The notes under the pieces: generated by a model
Databases searched by the model: none
Seen by the model: only the letters and a program-made list of their open reading frames with translations
What the model was told of the DNA's origin: nothing
Origin: Pseudoxanthomonas yeongjuensis
Lineage (GTDB): Bacteria; Pseudomonadota; Gammaproteobacteria; Xanthomonadales; Xanthomonadaceae
Reading direction: 5' to 3'
Length of the DNA stretch: 64,000 nucleotides
Assembly: GCF_010093345.1 (NCBI RefSeq)
Contig: NZ_PDWT01000003.1
Coordinates: 310,001 to 374,000, forward strand
Translations under genes and position numbers: made by a program
In this document: positions 55,980 through 64,000 of the stretch, one piece after another
How positions within the stretch are numbered: position 1 is the stretch's first letter
How the letters are laid out: every line of letters begins with the position of its first letter

Positions 55980-58571
55980 CTAGGGGCCGTCGCAACCGAG
56001 CACATGGTCGGCGACGGTTCCGTAACCGACCTCGCTGATCGCCAGCCGATAGCCCGCGCTGGATTCGATGCCCGCCGCCACGGTCAGCTTGCCCATGTTG
56101 GCGCCGGCGGCGGCGAAGCACTTCAATGGCATGCCGATGCTGGTCCATTGATTGACCGGCAGCGCCGCCAGTTGCGCGCCTACCGGCACCCGTCCGGCGC
56201 AATCGTCGCCGCACTCCACGAACAAGGCCGTCTCCCTGGGTGTCGGGGTTTCGATCCGCATCGTCAGCAGCAACAGCACGTCGCCATTGGTCTCGCGGCT
56301 GAGGTCGAGCGCATCGGGAGCCACCAGCGCGACGCTCGAAGGACCGTCCGCCACCCAGGCGTATCGCCAGGCGTCTTCCTGGGCCTTGTGGTCGACCGCG
56401 GTGACGGTGACGTTCGCATCCTTCGCTTCGGCAACGACAGTGGAATAGGCGGGTACGCCGGCGTGGGCCACGCGCAGTCGCCAGCCCTTGGCCAACGCCC
56501 CCCTTTCGAAGAAGCGCGCGCTCTGCACCGCGCTCAGGTCCAGGCCGGGATCCTCGCTCAACGGCGCGAGGTTGCCGTCTTCTCCGTACTTCAGGCCATA
56601 GCCGTACGCGAATTGCGGATCGCCGCCCTGCCCGGCGTTGAGCGGCGTCTGTGCCGCACTGCGCGGCCATGAGTAGGACAACTTGCCGCTGAAATCGTGG
56701 GCGACCTTGCCCTGTCCGTCGCGCAGCAGGACATCGGCTACGCCGCCGCCTTCCGAACCCGGCAACCACGCCGCGACGAAGGCATCGGAGACGTTGATCT
56801 CGCGGTTCACCCACAGCGGACGGCCCGACAGGAATACGGCGACCACGGGGATGCCTTCCTGCTTCAGGCGCTTGATCAGGTCCAGGTCGGCGGTGCTGGT
56901 CGGCTTGTAGGCGACGGTCTTGATGTCGCCCTGGAATTCGGCATAAGGCTCCTCGCCGAACACGACCACGGCCACGTCGGGTTTTGTTGCGTATTTTCCC
57001 TCCACCGACAGCGTCGCCTTGCCGCCGGCGGCCGCGACCTGCTCGGCGATGCCCGACCAGATCGACTGCGCCTTCGGAAAATCGGAAGGTTTCAAGCCCG
57101 TACCTTGCCAGGTCAGGGTCCAGCCGCCGGACTGCTTGCCGATATCGTCCGCGCCATCGCCGGCCACCAGCACGCTGGCTTTCGGATCCAGCGGCAATAT
57201 CCCACCCTGGTTCTTCAGCAATACCAGCGACTCGCGGACCGCGCGGCGGGCGATCGCGCGATGCTTCGGATCGCCCAGCAGATTGTCGTTGCCGGCCAGC
57301 GGGCGTTGCGAGGGTCGCGGGGCCTCGAACAGCCCCGCCCGCATCTTCACCCTGAGGATCCGGGTGACCGCGTCATCCAGCCGCGCCATCGAGATCTCGC
57401 CCGACTTCACATGCTTCAGGGTGCTTTCGTAATAACCCTTCCAGGTATCGGGCGTCATCATCATGTCCACGCCCGCGTTGAACGCAGCGGCGCAATCGGT
57501 GTTGCTGCAGCCGGGAACCTGGCCCTGCGCATTCCAGTCGCCGACCACGAAACCGTCGAAGCCCATGCGCTTCTTCAGGACTTCGGTCAGCAGGCTTTCG
57601 TTGCCGTGCATCTTGACCCCGTTCCAGCTGGAGAACGAAGCCATCACCGCCTGCACGCCGGCTTGCAGCGCCGGCGGATAGCCGGCGCCCTGCACGTCGC
57701 GCAGCTCTTCTTCGCTGACCCTGGCATCGCCCTGGTCGCGGCCTTCGTAGGTGCCGCCATCGCCGAGGAAGTGCTTGGCCGTGGCGATCACGTGCCCGGG
57801 CGCCAGGAACGACTTGCTGTTGACCTTGCCCTGCAGACCTTCGACCAGGGGTCCTGCGTAAAGCGCCGCGATTTCGGGATGCTCCGAATAACCTTCGTAG
57901 GTGCGCCCCCAGCGATCGTCCCTGGGCACGGCCAAAGTGGGAGCGAAGGTCCAGTCCAGGCCGGTGGCGCGGATTTCGACCGCGGTCGCGGCGGCGATCT
58001 CGCGCAGCAGTTCCGGGTCGCGGGTGGCGCCCAGTCCGATGTTGTGCGGAAACAGGGTCGCTCCCACCAGGTTGTTGTGGCCGTGCACCGCATCGATGCC
58101 GAACAGGACCGGGATGGCGTTATCGCCGCCGCTGGTGTCCATCGAGGCCTGGTAGAAAGCATCGGCCAGCGCCACCCACTGCGCCGCGGTCGCATGGAAG
58201 TCGTTGCCGGGATCGGAGTTTCCGCCCGCCAGCACCGAGCCGAGCCGGTATTTGCGCACGTCCTCGGGAGTCACGCTGGCGATGTCGCCCTGCACGACCT
58301 GGCCGACTTTTTCCTCGACGCTCATCCTGGACAGCAACTCGCGCACGCGACGCTCGAGTTCGGGATCCTGCTTCACCGGCGATCGCATCGCCGGCCATAG
58401 TCCGGGATGCGCCTGGGCGGATCGATTCGCCTCCGGATCACCGGCGGATCCGGGATCCTGCGCCCCCACCGAACCCGATACGCAGAGGGCCATGGCCAGC
58501 AAACAGAGGACGGGAAAGCGAGGGCGGGAAAGACGTGGTTCGTGCGGATACGGACGGATGGCTGGCTTCAT
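55980..58571 (-). CDS. GH3 exo-beta-glucosidase with C-terminal carbohydrate-binding-like domain
   Basis: This exported family 3 enzyme of 863 residues is of the 1,4-beta-D-glucan glucohydrolase/exo-1,3-1,4-glucanase type. The signal peptide ends near SGSVGAQD. The barrel carries LFGIDAVHGHNNLVGATLFPHNIG, AKHFLGDGGTYEGRDQGDA and the nucleophile Asp near residue 345 (DGFVVGDWNAQ). The second domain has RRAVRESLVLLKNQGGILPL and VVFGEEPYAEFQGD. A further beta-rich domain of about 180 residues ends the protein. It differs from the PA14-GH3 at 30633, and glucans rather than xylan are its likely substrates. It lies downstream of the halogenase cluster on the same strand. Confidence 0.9.
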   Translation of the reverse strand: MKPAIRPYPHEPRLSRPRFPVLCLLAMALCVSGSVGAQDPGSAGDPEANRSAQAHPGLWPAMRSPVKQDPELERRVRELLSRMSVEEKVGQVVQGDIASVTPEDVRKYRLGSVLAGGNSDPGNDFHATAAQWVALADAFYQASMDTSGGDNAIPVLFGIDAVHGHNNLVGATLFPHNIGLGATRDPELLREIAAATAVEIRATGLDWTFAPTLAVPRDDRWGRTYEGYSEHPEIAALYAGPLVEGLQGKVNSKSFLAPGHVIATAKHFLGDGGTYEGRDQGDARVSEEELRDVQGAGYPPALQAGVQAVMASFSSWNGVKMHGNESLLTEVLKKRMGFDGFVVGDWNAQGQVPGCSNTDCAAAFNAGVDMMMTPDTWKGYYESTLKHVKSGEISMARLDDAVTRILRVKMRAGLFEAPRPSQRPLAGNDNLLGDPKHRAIARRAVRESLVLLKNQGGILPLDPKASVLVAGDGADDIGKQSGGWTLTWQGTGLKPSDFPKAQSIWSGIAEQVAAAGGKATLSVEGKYATKPDVAVVVFGEEPYAEFQGDIKTVAYKPTSTADLDLIKRLKQEGIPVVAVFLSGRPLWVNREINVSDAFVAAWLPGSEGGGVADVLLRDGQGKVAHDFSGKLSYSWPRSAAQTPLNAGQGGDPQFAYGYGLKYGEDGNLAPLSEDPGLDLSAVQSARFFERGALAKGWRLRVAHAGVPAYSTVVAEAKDANVTVTAVDHKAQEDAWRYAWVADGPSSVALVAPDALDLSRETNGDVLLLLTMRIETPTPRETALFVECGDDCAGRVPVGAQLAALPVNQWTSIGMPLKCFAAAGANMGKLTVAAGIESSAGYRLAISEVGYGTVADHVLGCDGP

Positions 58572-58682: not shown

Positions 58683-59381
58683 TCAGTGCACCACGTCGAT
58701 GAAAGTGTTGATGGACAGCCGTCCCGCCAGCGGATCGGCGGGCGGGATGCGGGCATTGTCGATGCGCCCGGAATGCAGCGAGTTGCGCCGGTAGACCAGC
58801 ATCCGGTTGAACGCGCCATCCACATGGGCGACGCGCTCGAACAGCGATGTGTCGTCGTCGATGTAGCCTTCGCCGGTGGCGTCGCTGCGACGGCTTTCCA
58901 GCTCCAGGGAGCGGTAGTAAGAATCACGGCGCGACGGATCGATGCATTCGAAACCGCTTTGGCGGTGCCGGTAGAAAGCCGTTCCGCCCCATTCGCCACG
59001 GAACAGGTAGTGCACGGTCGCCAGGCCATCGCCCTGGACCGAATCGACATGCGGCACGCGCTGCAGGAACGACAGCTTTTCCGGCGGCAGGGTGACCAGG
59101 GAAAAGTGGCACATCGGGAATGCGAACCGGCCCGGCTGCAAGCCGAAGCATTCCGCCAGCAGCGGGTTCAGCGTCGTTTCCAGGAAATGCCGGTACGCCA
59201 GCGGCGCGGGGGCGCGGATGCCGGGAAAACCCGAGGATTGTGCGACGAAATGGCTGGTCGCGGCCTTGCGCACCAGCCGGTCGGGATCGGAGACCAGGTC
59301 GTCGATGACCAGCAACGGCGCTCCTTCCGCGCCGATGGAGAGCTTGCTGATGCGGATCCCGGGATGGCGATTCAGGAGCAT
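58683..59381 (-). CDS. DUF6445-type putative 2OG-Fe(II) oxygenase
   Basis: This 232-residue protein resembles the DUF6445 family, which is linked with TonB receptors and tryptophan-halogenase-like genes. A possible iron site is HVD at residues 111-113 with a second His at 203 (SLHSGRID) and an Arg at 221 (GRLSINTFIDV), the spacing expected of a prolyl-hydroxylase-like double-stranded helix. No signal peptide is visible. The ATG at 59381 has an AGGA site upstream and follows the halogenase by 24 bases. Enzymatic activity is not proven and the substrate is unknown. Confidence 0.75.
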   Translation of the reverse strand: MLLNRHPGIRISKLSIGAEGAPLLVIDDLVSDPDRLVRKAATSHFVAQSSGFPGIRAPAPLAYRHFLETTLNPLLAECFGLQPGRFAFPMCHFSLVTLPPEKLSFLQRVPHVDSVQGDGLATVHYLFRGEWGGTAFYRHRQSGFECIDPSRRDSYYRSLELESRRSDATGEGYIDDDTSLFERVAHVDGAFNRMLVYRRNSLHSGRIDNARIPPADPLAGRLSINTFIDVVH

Positions 59382-59405
59382 GGGTCTTCCTGGCGAGCCT
59401 GCCGG

Positions 59406-60971
59406 TCAAGGCGTCGCCAACGCCGTCTTCGCCGCCCAGACTTCGGGCGCGGCTTTGCAATAGCGCTCGATGAATTCCTGCTGCGACGGCATCTGCGCGA
59501 TGGCCCGGCCGATGGGCTGGCGGATCGAATCGAACAGCTGGCGCATGTTCTCGTCGGGCAGCGCCCGCGTCACCGGATGGTGTTGCTGCGGCGCGATGCC
59601 TTGCCCCAGCAACACATGCGTCCACGAATCGATCCGGAACAGTTCGTCCGCGCCCTGCCATGCGTGCGCGCGATCGCGCCACGCGCGCAGGCGCAAGGCC
59701 AGCGATTCCGGCAATTCCATCTCGCGGCATTCCTTCCACATCGGTTCGTCGCGCTGGTTGGCGTGGTAATGCAGGATGATGAAATCGCGCACATGCTCCA
59801 TTTCCGCGCGGCCGGCGTTGTTGTACAGGTCGACCAGGGTCGGGGAGATGCCGTCGAACGGGAACAGCTGGACCAGGCGCACGATGGCGCTGATGGTCAG
59901 GTGGATGCTGGTCGATTCCAGCGGCTCGATGAAGCCGCTGGCGAAGCCCAGCGACACCACGTTCCTGTTCCAGGTCTTGAGCCGGCGGCCGGTGCGGAAA
60001 GGCACCAGCCACGGCTCCTTGATCGGCGTCGCTCCAACGTCGCGCAACAGCTTGGCCCGGGCCTCGTCGTCGGACATGTGCCGGCTGGAAAAGACCAGCC
60101 CGCCGCCATTGCGATGCTGCAGCGGAATGTGCCAGCGCCAGCCGGCCTCGTGGGCGATGGCGCGCGTGTACGGCACTGGCGGGCCGACCGATTCGGTCTG
60201 CACCGCCACGGCGCGGTCGCTGGGCAGCCAGTGGTTCCAGTCTTCGTAGCCGGTGTGCAGGGTCTGTTCGATCAGCAATCCGCGGAAGCCGGTGCAGTCG
60301 ATGAACAGGTCGCCTTCCAGCACCTGCCCGTCCTCCAGCACCAGCGCCTGTATATCGCCGCTTTGCGGGTGCTGCCGCACTTCGTGGATCTTGCCTTCGA
60401 CGCGCTTGAGGCCGTGGCCCTCGGCCATGCGCCGCAGGAAGCGCGTGTAGAGGCTCGCGTCGAAGTGGTAGGCGTAATTGATCTGCGGTTGTTGCGGCTG
60501 CCCGAACAGGTCGCCGCGCGCGGCCAGCGTCTCCAGGCAGAAGTCGCCCAGTTCCGATTGCATGCCGCGGCGCTGGCTTTCCAGCCAGAAATGGTGGAAG
60601 GCGCAAGCCAGGGTGCTCTGCCCGGTGACCCCGAACGGATGGATGAAGCGGTCGCCCGGGCGGCGCCAGTTCTCGAAGGAGATGCCGACCTTGAAGGTGC
60701 CGGCGACGGTGCGCAGGAACTCCTGCTCGTCGATCTGCAGGAAACGGTGGAAGGTGCGGATCGTCGGCACCGTCGATTCGCCGACGCCGACGGTGCCGAT
60801 CTGTTCCGATTCGATCAGGGTGATGTCGAGCAGGTCGCGGAACTGGTGCGCCAGGGTGGCCGCGGCCAGCCAGCCCGAGGTGCCGCCACCGGCGATCACG
60901 ACCTTGCGGATCCTGGCCTTGCCCGATGCGTTGTCGTTCAAGCTGCTGTCGTTCGATCCGCTGCTGTTCAA
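59406..60971 (-). CDS. Flavin-dependent tryptophan-halogenase-like protein
   Basis: This 521-residue flavoprotein belongs to the tryptophan 7-halogenase family. It has the FAD motif GGGTSG at residues 28-33, the Lys expected to carry hypohalite at 94 (TFKVGISFENW), and the WxWxIP motif at 278-283 (WRWHIP). The start is a TTG at 60971 with an AAGGGG ribosome binding site; no better start is in frame. Family members encoded beside TonB receptors and SapC have no established function and need not halogenate tryptophan. It sits 43 bases after the JmjC-like gene in an apparent four-gene operon. Confidence 0.88.
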   Translation of the reverse strand: MNSSGSNDSSLNDNASGKARIRKVVIAGGGTSGWLAAATLAHQFRDLLDITLIESEQIGTVGVGESTVPTIRTFHRFLQIDEQEFLRTVAGTFKVGISFENWRRPGDRFIHPFGVTGQSTLACAFHHFWLESQRRGMQSELGDFCLETLAARGDLFGQPQQPQINYAYHFDASLYTRFLRRMAEGHGLKRVEGKIHEVRQHPQSGDIQALVLEDGQVLEGDLFIDCTGFRGLLIEQTLHTGYEDWNHWLPSDRAVAVQTESVGPPVPYTRAIAHEAGWRWHIPLQHRNGGGLVFSSRHMSDDEARAKLLRDVGATPIKEPWLVPFRTGRRLKTWNRNVVSLGFASGFIEPLESTSIHLTISAIVRLVQLFPFDGISPTLVDLYNNAGRAEMEHVRDFIILHYHANQRDEPMWKECREMELPESLALRLRAWRDRAHAWQGADELFRIDSWTHVLLGQGIAPQQHHPVTRALPDENMRQLFDSIRQPIGRAIAQMPSQQEFIERYCKAAPEVWAAKTALATP

Positions 60972-61014
60972 TTCGTCCCCTTCGCTTTCGCAATCGTTGG
61001 TTGGCGCATCCGGC

Positions 61015-62046
61015 TCAGCGGTTGAGCTTGCCGATCAGCATCGCCCGCATCCGCCGGGCCAGGTTTTCGTCGATGGGGCCGAGCAGGTCGCGCGCGGCCG
61101 GCGGCAGGTGCTCGCCGGCGCGCTCGCCGGGGCCGAACACGTAGTAGTCGAAGACCTCGCGCCAGGCCTGCTTCTCGCGCTCGGGGCGGTCGCGGATCGT
61201 CCACAGCGCGTGGTACAGCGCATGCATCGGCGTCGGCAGGTAGGCCGGCACGCTGCTCCACCAGTAGTTGACCAGCACGGTGAACGCATCCAGCCCCTGC
61301 ACGTGGTGCCACCACATGCTGGGGATGAAGATCGCATCGCCCGGTTCCAGCACCGCGGCTTGTCCCGACGCCAGCGCTTCGCGGAAACGCGGATGGCGCT
61401 CGAAGTCGGGATCGGCGAAATCGACCACGCTCACCGCCTGTCCGCCGGGCGTCGGTTCCAGCGGACCGGGATACAGGTTGACGATCTGTTCCGGCGGAAA
61501 CAGGGTGAACCGCCGTCGCCCGACCGTGCAGCAGGCGATGTTGTTCGGCGCGTCGTAATGGCAGGACGCGGTGACGCGGTTGCCGATCCAGATGCTTGGC
61601 GGCGCCTGCACGCCATGCGCGGCGAAGTCGAGATCGTTGCCGGCGCGCAGGCCCGGCAGGCAGCCGTCGACCAGCAACGAAGCGATGTAGTAGGTGGGCG
61701 GATGCGCGTCTTCCGCGTGCGCCGCGATTTCGTCCAGCACCTGGTCCAGCCCGCCACGCCGGACCTCGCAGTTCAATGCGCTGAAGTCGTCATTGTAGAA
61801 CGGACGCCCCGCGACCTCCGGGCCGCCATGGGAATACTGCACCGGCTTGCCGTTGTAGTGGCCACGCAGGCAGGCCATCGCCGCCTGCGGCGACTCCAGC
61901 CCTGCCCGTACCAGCTCCCAATCGCGGACGGCGCCCTTCAGCACCGCGGGCCGTCCCGCCGCGAGCAATTCGTCCAGTGGCAACGCGTCGGGCTTGCAGC
62001 CTTCGATCACGCGGATGTCGCCTGCCGCCACGGCCATGTCGCTCAC
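61015..62046 (-). CDS. Cupin-like JmjC-domain oxygenase
   Basis: This 343-residue protein of the cupin_8/JmjC-like group has an HxD metal pair at His163 and Asp165 (SCHYDAPNNIACC) and a later His at 247-248 (IPSMWWHHVQG). These fit an Fe(II)/2-oxoglutarate hydroxylase acting on a protein side chain or small molecule. The start is a GTG at 62046 that overlaps the SapC stop in GTGA; an ATG three codons on is an alternative. Such proteins recur in TonB receptor loci with SapC and halogenase-like genes. The target is unknown. Confidence 0.85.
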   Translation of the reverse strand: MSDMAVAAGDIRVIEGCKPDALPLDELLAAGRPAVLKGAVRDWELVRAGLESPQAAMACLRGHYNGKPVQYSHGGPEVAGRPFYNDDFSALNCEVRRGGLDQVLDEIAAHAEDAHPPTYYIASLLVDGCLPGLRAGNDLDFAAHGVQAPPSIWIGNRVTASCHYDAPNNIACCTVGRRRFTLFPPEQIVNLYPGPLEPTPGGQAVSVVDFADPDFERHPRFREALASGQAAVLEPGDAIFIPSMWWHHVQGLDAFTVLVNYWWSSVPAYLPTPMHALYHALWTIRDRPEREKQAWREVFDYYVFGPGERAGEHLPPAARDLLGPIDENLARRMRAMLIGKLNR

Positions 62047-62801
62047 GCCGCGCGTTCGGGCGCGGCAGCGTCCTGTTCGCGCAAGCGACGCTGCTTTTCC
62101 GCCATCAGCCGGCGCATGTTGTGCATCGAGGCCAGCACCAGGTAGGCGCCTTCGAGGTAGCCGGCCTGGTTCAGGCGCTGCAGCGATGCGGCGTCGAGTG
62201 CGGCCAGCTTTTCGCGGTCGATGCCATGCAGCCCGCTGACGCTGACCCGGTTCTTTTCGTCGAGTCGCACGTCGAGGTCGACCGGCTGGACCAGCCCCAT
62301 CGAATCGAACATCGCGAACATCGCCTTGCCGAATTCCGCGCCATCGCGGATGCCGCGCAGTACGCTGGCGATATGTTGCAGATACGGGCTTTGCCCGCCT
62401 TGCGGCAGGAATACCGCCTCGCCTTCGCTGGAACCGACGCGCGGATGTTCCAGGTCGACGTGCATGACCGGCTCCATGCGCAGTTCGCCATCGATGCGCT
62501 GTTCCTGGAAGCCGATCAGGAACGGCCCCTTGGCGACGGCGCCCGGCAGGTAGGCGGCGTTCCAGCGGCCGTCCCGCAGGAACAGGTTCTCATGCTGTTC
62601 GAACCCCAGCAGCGCCACCGACTGCCATTCGCCGCTGTCGCGGTCCTTGCGGAAGAAGATCGGATATTCCCTCTGCAGCTCGGCGTATTCGCTCGGGAAC
62701 GCCGGCACCATGCCGATGTCGTCGCCGAATTCGCGGCCGAAGCGGGTGACCACGCGCAGATCCTTGTGGGTCACGTTGTCGAGCAGTTCGTATCGGGCCA
62801 T
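62043..62801 (-). CDS. SapC family protein
   Basis: This 252-residue protein resembles the SapC family first named for a Campylobacter S-layer locus. It shows HKDLRVVTRFGREFGDDIGM near the start, then YPIFFRKDRDSGEW and the SVALLGFEQHENLFL block. A charged C-terminal tail follows (RRLMAEKQRRLREQD). There is no signal peptide or membrane helix. The ATG at 62801 has GGAACCG upstream; a longer frame to 62936 crosses a terminator and is unlikely. It is the first gene of the SapC-JmjC-halogenase-DUF6445 set and follows a TonB receptor. The molecular role is unknown. Confidence 0.85.
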   Translation of the reverse strand: MARYELLDNVTHKDLRVVTRFGREFGDDIGMVPAFPSEYAELQREYPIFFRKDRDSGEWQSVALLGFEQHENLFLRDGRWNAAYLPGAVAKGPFLIGFQEQRIDGELRMEPVMHVDLEHPRVGSSEGEAVFLPQGGQSPYLQHIASVLRGIRDGAEFGKAMFAMFDSMGLVQPVDLDVRLDEKNRVSVSGLHGIDREKLAALDAASLQRLNQAGYLEGAYLVLASMHNMRRLMAEKQRRLREQDAAAPERAA

Positions 62802-62900
62802 TTCGGTTCCGGCAATGAAACAGGTGCGGCCTGGGCCACGACGACGATTGCAGAAAACCATTGCATCGGCAAGCGGGATCGTTTGCGCCGCGCTCCTCGA

Positions 62901-62931
62901 TAAAAGGGACCGCTGCTTTCGCAGCGGTCCC
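62901..62931 (-). terminator. Intrinsic terminator after the TonB receptor gene
   Basis: GGGACCGCTGC and GCAGCGGTCCC form a perfect 11-base stem with a four-base loop. On the minus strand the stem is followed by TTTTA. It lies 36 bases after the receptor stop and before SapC, so the receptor and the SapC operon are probably separate transcripts. Confidence 0.85.
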
Positions 62932-62966
62932 GCCACGCGACATCCGGGGAGGATGTATCGCAGGAC

Positions 62967-64000
62967 TCAGAACTTGTAACGCACCCCGAGCATGTAGCGC
63001 GGGCTCTGGTCGGCCAGCTTGACGATCTGCTTGTCGGTGCGGGCGTGCCAGCGCACGTCCTCGCCGGTCAGGTTGATCGCCTCCAGGCCGAACGACCAGT
63101 GGTCGTTGAGCGCGTAGTTCACGCTCAGGTCCCACTGATCGTAGGCCTCCACGTAGTACGGATTGCGGCTGGCGCCCTGGTTGGCCAGGATCAGGTATTC
63201 GTCGCGCCAGTTCCAGGCCAGGCGCACGGACCAGCCGTATTTCTCGTACATGAACATGGCGTTGGCGGTGTCGCTCAGCCCGGTCAGCGAGAACTGGTCG
63301 ATGTTGGGATCGCCCGCGTCGTCGTAGCCCACGTCGCCCTTGACGATGGTGTAGTTGGCGAAGATGCCGAAACCACTGTCGCCGAAGAAGTACTGTCCAC
63401 CCAGTTCCCAGCCATGCAACTTGGCCTGGTTCTGGTTGACCGGGCGGTTGACGTTGAACATGTACAGCGGATCGTCGGCTTCGCCGACCAGGTTGTAAGC
63501 CGCTTCCGTCGCCAGCGCCTGCGCGCCGGTGCCGTTGAAGGCCGCCAACCCGGCGGGATCGTTGCGCAACAGCGCCAGCGCGGTGAACAGCGAGGTGTCG
63601 TTGCCCGAACAGGCGGCGGCGTTGGCCGCGCCCACCTGGGTTATGCAGGCCGCGCTCTGCAGGAAGTCCAACGCCGCCTGTGCATCGGGGCCGGAAGTCG
63701 GATCGGTCAGGCCGTACAGCGGTTGCTGCGTCACGCCATTGCCGATGAAGTTTGCTACCGACTTGTTCCAATAAGTCAACGAAACGTAGCTGGCGTCGGC
63801 GAAATACCACTCCAGCGCCAGATCCAGGTTGTCCGATTCCAACGGCTTCAGCATGGGATTCTGATCGTTACCGCTGGCGCGGACCGAGGGGTCGAGCAGC
63901 ACCGAGCCGAACGGCTGCTGCGCAGTACCGGGGCCAGCGTACAGATTGCCGTAAGGCGCGCGTGCGATGGTCTTGCCGAATGAAGCGCGGCCCTTCAACT
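62967..64000 (-). CDS. TonB-dependent receptor, C-terminal part (runs off window)
   Basis: This partial reading frame encodes the last part of an outer-membrane barrel. It contains the typical block LKPLESDNLDLALEWYFADASYVSLTYWNK, split near the visible start, then the YNLVGEADDPLYMFNVNRPVN region. It ends in SPRYMLGVRYKF with the C-terminal Phe. The style matches the large Xanthomonas/Caulobacter carbohydrate receptors rather than siderophore receptors. The N-terminus lies beyond position 64000. A terminator separates it from the SapC operon. With the GH3 glucosidase on the far side, an oligosaccharide or glycoside cargo is plausible. Confidence 0.9.
   Translation of the reverse strand, partial: LKGRASFGKTIARAPYGNLYAGPGTAQQPFGSVLLDPSVRASGNDQNPMLKPLESDNLDLALEWYFADASYVSLTYWNKSVANFIGNGVTQQPLYGLTDPTSGPDAQAALDFLQSAACITQVGAANAAACSGNDTSLFTALALLRNDPAGLAAFNGTGAQALATEAAYNLVGEADDPLYMFNVNRPVNQNQAKLHGWELGGQYFFGDSGFGIFANYTIVKGDVGYDDAGDPNIDQFSLTGLSDTANAMFMYEKYGWSVRLAWNWRDEYLILANQGASRNPYYVEAYDQWDLSVNYALNDHWSFGLEAINLTGEDVRWHARTDKQIVKLADQSPRYMLGVRYKF

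Follow-up and report, generated by a model that had tools for sequence, protein, structure and literature searches.

A minus-strand gene set at the end of the window

We analysed a 64,000-nucleotide stretch of the Pseudoxanthomonas yeongjuensis genome (GCF_010093345.1, NZ_PDWT01000003.1, positions 310,001–374,000), here called the window, to which all coordinates refer unless a locus is named. At its end, on the minus strand, lies a run of genes. Followed in the direction of transcription, they are a TonB receptor (its C-terminal part only), SapC, Cupin_8, a flavin halogenase, DUF6445 and a GH3 gene. The initial annotation had proposed the first five as a candidate system; we found the genes intact and in the place described, with profile scores all above the Pfam cut-offs. 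The receptor belongs to the TonB-Xanth-Caul subfamily. Its C-terminal part occupies 62967..64000 (65 bits against a cut-off of 27) and the gene extends past the window to about 66134 (L004:6968-10135, equivalent to 62967-66134); against the TIGR01782 cut-off of 310 bits, this part scores 274 alone and the whole gene 772. SapC (PF07277, 62043..62801, 220 against 28.9 bits) probably starts at 62801, to judge by its homologues, about 165 bp from the receptor; with the GTG frame that opens at 62936, the gap would be 30 bp.

The remaining genes are tightly packed, as had been described. Cupin_8, an apparent 2-oxoglutarate (2OG) oxygenase of the FIH/JMJD kind (61015..62046, 232 against 27 bits), overlaps SapC by 4 bp; 43 bp separate it from the halogenase (Trp_halogenase, 59406..60971, 641 against 21 bits), and another 24 bp separate that gene from DUF6445, a predicted 2OG-Fe oxygenase (58683..59381, 261 against 24 bits). 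Beyond the set, on the same strand, follow a glucosidase-type GH3 gene with an Exop_C domain (55980..58571), which is a neighbour outside the core, and an MFS gene; no sugar regulator was identified beside the window set. Searches with the PADLOC models (no family for the four set proteins at E<=0.01) and Rfam returned no match. The same genome carries a second set that consists of receptor-SapC-Cupin_8-halogenase, lacks DUF6445 and lies close to LacI and GH3 genes; a third SapC gene stands alone. The genome has two full-length halogenase matches and two Cupin_8 matches, all of which fall in the two sets. A second, distant DUF6445-family gene (L108:9257-9883, 51 bits) has no set genes around it. 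The closest named relative in the Cupin_8 scan, among the best 80 of 580, was Pseudoxanthomonas sp. CF125, at 87% in Cupin_8.

A four-gene core that travels with one receptor clade

We read the genes around SapC in 121 genomes of the window's taxonomic order (the order sample), which hold 58 full-length SapC genes when two SapC fragments of genome G052 are set aside. Thirty of the 58 adjoin Cupin_8, and these are accompanied by a receptor in 30/30 and by a halogenase in 29/30. In L083 the set halogenase lies in two pieces with a stop codon between them (L083:11311-13474), perhaps a recent loss, and L095 stops at a contig edge. Around the other 28, no Cupin_8 or halogenase of the set type was seen within the stretches read, mostly 20 kb. 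A search anchored on the window receptor (E<=1e-120), which took no more than six receptor candidates from each genome and did not catch every set receptor, returned 22 matches, all 22 with SapC adjacent or one gene off; in G052 that SapC is a fragment only.

A named-genome sample of 80 loci, the best 80 of 580 relatives found through Cupin_8, partly overlaps the order sample (L115/L078) and, being anchored on Cupin_8, gives no rate of that gene in sets. Its loci span Xanthomonas, Stenotrophomonas, Luteimonas, Lysobacter, Steroidobacter, Microbulbifer, Cellvibrio and Rheinheimera, as well as Sphingomonas, Caulobacter, Asticcacaulis and Hyphomonas. Across both samples, with their slight overlap, Cupin_8 is directly downstream of SapC in 106/113; the seven exceptions are L055, L116, L127, L148, L152, L167 and L175, some of them at the edge of the stretch read. 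With T for receptor, S for SapC, C for Cupin_8, H for halogenase and D for DUF6445, the commonest layouts were T-S-C-H (60), T-S-C-H-D (18) and T-H-S-C-H (8). At L041, L053, L072, L080, L082, L087, L092, L096, L100 and L106, a further halogenase stands between the receptor and SapC genes, and these upstream copies mostly form a clade of their own, distinct from the downstream copies.

The four core genes therefore co-occur far above chance, and random scattering of their families across genomes is refuted. The core unit is TonB receptor, SapC, Cupin_8 and flavin halogenase, four genes rather than the five first proposed; the initial observation holds, and more strongly than it was put. We rejected DUF6445 as a core gene: only 6 of its 22 strong matches in the order sample lie inside a set (for 21 we read wider flanks; the stretch for G059, L024, is too short to tell), and it is found within 9 kb of 26/103 set receptors. 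It is an accessory member. Non-set DUF6445 genes at L049:9618-16183, L051:873-8033 and L045:1680-8251 are followed by a TonB receptor about 2.5–3 kb on, and the ORFs (open reading frames) scanned in between had no Pfam match. GH3, which had been listed beside the set, was present at only 13/30 set loci of the order sample and does not belong to it.

In a FastTree receptor tree, 106 set receptors fall in one clade with support 100, after eight set labels were corrected by hand (five added, including L127, where only receptor and SapC are visible before the stretch ends, and three upstream receptors removed). The clade also holds L114_2, L168_1871 and L175_6709, three receptors at which we saw no full set; the seven other TIGR01782 receptors above cut-off in the window genome fall outside it. 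Over 98 complete sets, the pairwise distances of the four core genes correlate with one another at 0.85–0.93. In genomes that hold two sets, the correlation is 0.62–0.92 for matched genes and −0.07 to −0.35 for swapped ones (four of five planned genome pairs). Sets thus move with their own receptor and do not exchange parts with the paralogous set.

Conserved catalytic residues and the wider world of receptor-linked halogenases

The key residues reported for the three enzymes were all confirmed in the window, and they are kept across homologues, which refutes catalytic loss. In Cupin_8 the triad is His163/Asp165/His247; HxD...H is kept in 112/112 sequences, some from outside sets, and so is an Arg where 2OG presumably binds. 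Triad, homology and the PF13621 score all match it to 2OG oxygenases of the FIH/JmjC type, and its closest solved relatives are FIH (best E 6e-21) and JMJD5/7. FIH and JMJD5/7 are protein hydroxylases. The set enzyme shares with them the alignment and the HxD...H motif and differs in being bacterial and in carrying the Arg at the position of the 2OG-binding Lys of FIH. In Xanthomonas annotations the set Cupin_8 gene is presumably the one named 'Pass1-related'. DUF6445 (His111/Asp113/His203) keeps HxD...H and an Arg in 43/43 homologues, again some from outside sets. Its predicted model (mean confidence score, pLDDT, 94.3) has a 2OG-Fe oxygenase fold, a double-stranded beta-helix, with 34 Foldseek matches at E<=0.001, best OGFOD1 (E 6e-6).

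The window halogenase has a GxGxxG flavin adenine dinucleotide (FAD) motif, Lys94, WRWHIP from 278 and Glu352. Among 125 halogenases of the fetched loci, some non-set, the Lys94 and Glu352 equivalents are each kept in 124, both Trp residues of WxWxIP in 125 and the final Pro in 86. By eye and unscored, STVPTI at 66 and HPFG at 111 resemble rows of the group-C substrate-site motif table in the available part of PMC8269204, such as ATIPTI/HPFGL of BrvH. That part of the paper also states that related halogenases reject free Trp and that MibH, of the same group, acts on a peptide Trp.

Some studied Xanthomonas halogenases turned out to be set members. Xcc4156 (PDB 6y1w) is 72% identical to the L082 set halogenase and lies within the set halogenase clade, and its 88–90% orthologues terminate a receptor-SapC-Cupin_8-halogenase set in 4/4 genomes. 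Halogenases with STVPPI/HPFG- end such a set in 4/4, and those with ATVPHI/HGFGT in 0/3; from the motif table, as available in PMC8269204, these would be Xcc1333-like and Xcc4345-like, with the mismatch that Xcc1333 has HPFGS there and the Xcc1333-like set genes have HPFGI. These enzymes and BrvH have been studied in isolation as indole brominases, and the portion of PMC7336383 available to us gives solved structures of Xcc4156 and BrvH and states that their native substrates are unknown. The X. campestris halogenases and BrvH of Brevundimonas resemble the set halogenases in type, FAD, Lys and WxWxIP features, although BrvH falls outside their clade; the main text of PMC5945002, as far as accessible, does not mention TonB, SapC or cupin.

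The link between halogenase and receptor extends beyond the set, a pattern that the initial annotation did not have. In five further genomes, chosen because they bear a set, 39/46 halogenases have a TIGR01782 receptor no more than 2 kb away when runs of halogenases are counted through (74 of 75 receptor rows were used, the other being a partial frame). Five of the 39 are set members and the 34 others lie within about 520 bp, again counting through runs; about 0.2 halogenases would be expected within 500 bp of a receptor by chance. Three Sphingomonas sets lack a halogenase, and the same genomes carry 11–15 halogenase matches elsewhere, many of which, among those examined, follow receptors of other kinds, some as tandem arrays. 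Genomes of Sphingomonas, Cellvibrio and Caulobacter have arrays of three to four halogenases next to TonB receptors, some with Cupin_8 (L271:10500-17700, L272:8800-15900, L273:8700-13300, L274:1500-7100 and G261:C26:107838-113750); each includes one divergent, low-scoring halogenase (309–326 bits in L271–L274, 337 in G261).

SapC gave a confident model (pLDDT 95.9) with no structural match at E<=0.001, the best being E 0.07 in PDB and 0.013 among the viral models of BFVD. Some solitary SapC genes have an exported protein as neighbour, namely an autotransporter at L006, a ShlB-type transporter at L058 and the product of an OmpH-like gene at L093. In the window genome, the gene immediately upstream of the solitary SapC is an autotransporter-type ORF of 3,191 residues that carries PATR repeats (L006:9440-19825). 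A crude N-terminal hydropathy measure, with a small margin and not a signal-peptide prediction, gave 0.90–1.33 for the window enzymes and SapC, 1.61 for the receptor of the second set and 2.42 for GH3. The set enzymes look cytoplasmic, a compartment in which the receptor would be an unfolded precursor.

The receptor as candidate substrate

We propose, at slightly under an even chance, that the set is a cassette dedicated to cytoplasmic oxidative modification of the receptor precursor. The receptor and three or four cytoplasmic proteins would be produced together. SapC would bind or present the unfolded precursor in the cytoplasm, the FIH-like Cupin_8 enzyme would hydroxylate a receptor side chain, and the halogenase would halogenate, probably brominate, a peptide-bound indole ring; where encoded, DUF6445 may contribute a second 2OG-dependent hydroxylation. 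After export, the modified receptor would fold in the outer membrane, and there the change might tune ligand binding or shield an exposed site. Support comes from the pairing of the set with a single receptor clade, matched co-inheritance, the kept residues, the wider adjacency of halogenases and receptors, and the solitary SapC genes that adjoin exported proteins.

The initial annotation had offered the receptor's cargo or a surface protein as the target. The genes around the sets bear on this choice. Among the nearest ORFs that we scanned, which were 61/69 on the downstream side and 48/63 on the upstream side with short ORFs left out, the sugar genes differ from set to set (GH3, LacI, FGGY kinase, GH67, GH2), and the commonest family reaches only 8/48 upstream and 5/61 downstream. 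We favour the receptor as substrate because its clade is constant while these neighbouring sugar genes vary; elimination and kinship, with the FIH/JMJD-type enzymes that act on proteins and with MibH and its peptide Trp, point the same way. The receptor could instead import a sugar or glycoside decorated with an aromatic group, whose freed aromatic part the cytoplasmic enzymes would hydroxylate or halogenate. Sugar genes such as GH3, LacI, FGGY kinase and GH67 do lie close to many sets, and known halogenases take free indoles (available parts of PMC7336383 and PMC8269204). A single cargo would need a hydrolase, kinase or inner-membrane transporter of its own, however, and none recurs beyond a few sets; halogenation would also be an odd catabolic step. 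We consider cargo modification unlikely.

The same neighbour scan speaks to a small biosynthetic pathway whose product, a metabolite or peptide with halogen and hydroxyl groups, the receptor would take back up. Tailoring of this sort is commonly done by flavin halogenases and 2OG oxygenases, but we found no peptide or polyketide synthase or other core gene in the 25 commonest neighbour families of these 61 and 48 ORFs, in a scan that did not search for short precursors. Nor was such a gene seen among the scanned window neighbours, where its absence had been remarked on at the outset. A pathway of this kind seems improbable to us. Another exported surface or outer-membrane protein might also be the target, with the receptor merely co-expressed. 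Set-free SapC genes do at times stand beside the exported-type genes described above or beside giant ORFs; those of L071 and L075, like a 1,760-residue piece of the one in L077, had no Pfam match. Against this, the pairing with one receptor clade and the excess of matched over swapped co-inheritance indicate the receptor, and we give such a target little credence.

As candidate halogenase targets, we looked for Trp residues that distinguish set receptors. In 103 set receptors longer than 850 residues, Trp347, Trp551, Trp668 and Trp971 are invariant; among the 17 non-set receptors nearest in the tree, they are present in 2, 2, 1 and 5. A post hoc count by eye found the Trp hint in 6/11 halogenase-adjacent and 1/22 other non-set receptors. 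The test plan was then written down before a fresh batch was taken, comprising all 20 halogenase-adjacent receptors and the best-scoring 40 of 47 non-adjacent ones (seven set-like receptors were unfetched). In this batch Trp551 occurred in 13/20 adjacent and 8/40 non-adjacent receptors (p 0.0012) and Trp971 in 13/20 and 7/40. On the fresh-batch tree there are only about six changes in adjacency to a halogenase, too few for significance, and 26/923 column states differ at least as strongly as Trp551, so ancestry alone can explain its enrichment. We keep Trp551 only as a candidate halogenase target. Receptor residues such as Pro367 (26/26 against 39/77 in raw counts) were also tried as DUF6445 targets.

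Several results weigh against receptor modification. No modified receptor residue is known. The fresh batch showed no enrichment of Trp347 (3/20 and 5/40) or Trp668 (2/20 and 2/40), Trp551 kept no independent signal after correction for ancestry, and the invariant Trp residues are also kept in the three Sphingomonas sets without a halogenase. In the independent pairs listed, no receptor residue tracks DUF6445, Pro367 included, and no compact recognition motif was found in set receptors. The published halogenase activity is on free indole-type substrates (PMC7336383, in the part available). SapC lacks an established function or fold, and the 13 solitary-SapC neighbours scanned, of 56, comprise three exported-type matches, one elongation factor and nine without a Pfam match. 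Operon linkage by itself would yield the same co-inheritance. Receptor modification is a plausible, unproven mechanism.

QhpG and LodB offer a functional comparison: they are flavoproteins of the wide superfamily, each encoded near a partner protein whose Trp it modifies. The set halogenase is no member of either family, since its NCBIfam scores of 29 and 24 bits are far under the cut-offs of 240 and 400. In part the locus also resembles CUT loci (for carbohydrate utilisation with TonB receptors): its receptor is of their subfamily, GH3 and MFS genes lie near it, and LacI genes stand near other sets. The set itself falls outside the CUT description, as the main text of PMC1790865, so far as accessible, contains no halogenase, SapC or Pass1. 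A full-text literature search that covered few subscription papers gave no description of the set in the titles and abstract openings listed, in keeping with the initial view that the joint function is undescribed, and none stands in the accessible parts of PMC7336383, PMC8269204, PMC5945002, PMC11337851, PMC1790865 or PMC5343134. The set is a conserved, receptor-dedicated cassette, not found described, inside the known world of TonB sugar loci.

With Xcc4156 placed in a receptor-dedicated set and most halogenases of five genomes beside a TonB receptor, the question of the native substrate reduces to one mass-spectrometry experiment on a named protein, and SapC, a confident model without a structural match, now has strict partners to test. 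Were cargo modification true, it would be an unexpected uptake chemistry. It is conceivable, though we hold this broader idea tentatively, that this and other halogenase-linked receptor clades are brominated and hydroxylated in the cytoplasm before export by the enzymes of adjacent genes, with SapC as a new precursor-presenting factor, and that this is the native role of the orphan indole halogenases; such receptors would be a first class of outer-membrane proteins with a dedicated oxidative maturation. If receptor modification is true, outer-membrane protein maturation would gain an oxidative branch, and orphan halogenases would gain a first testable job.

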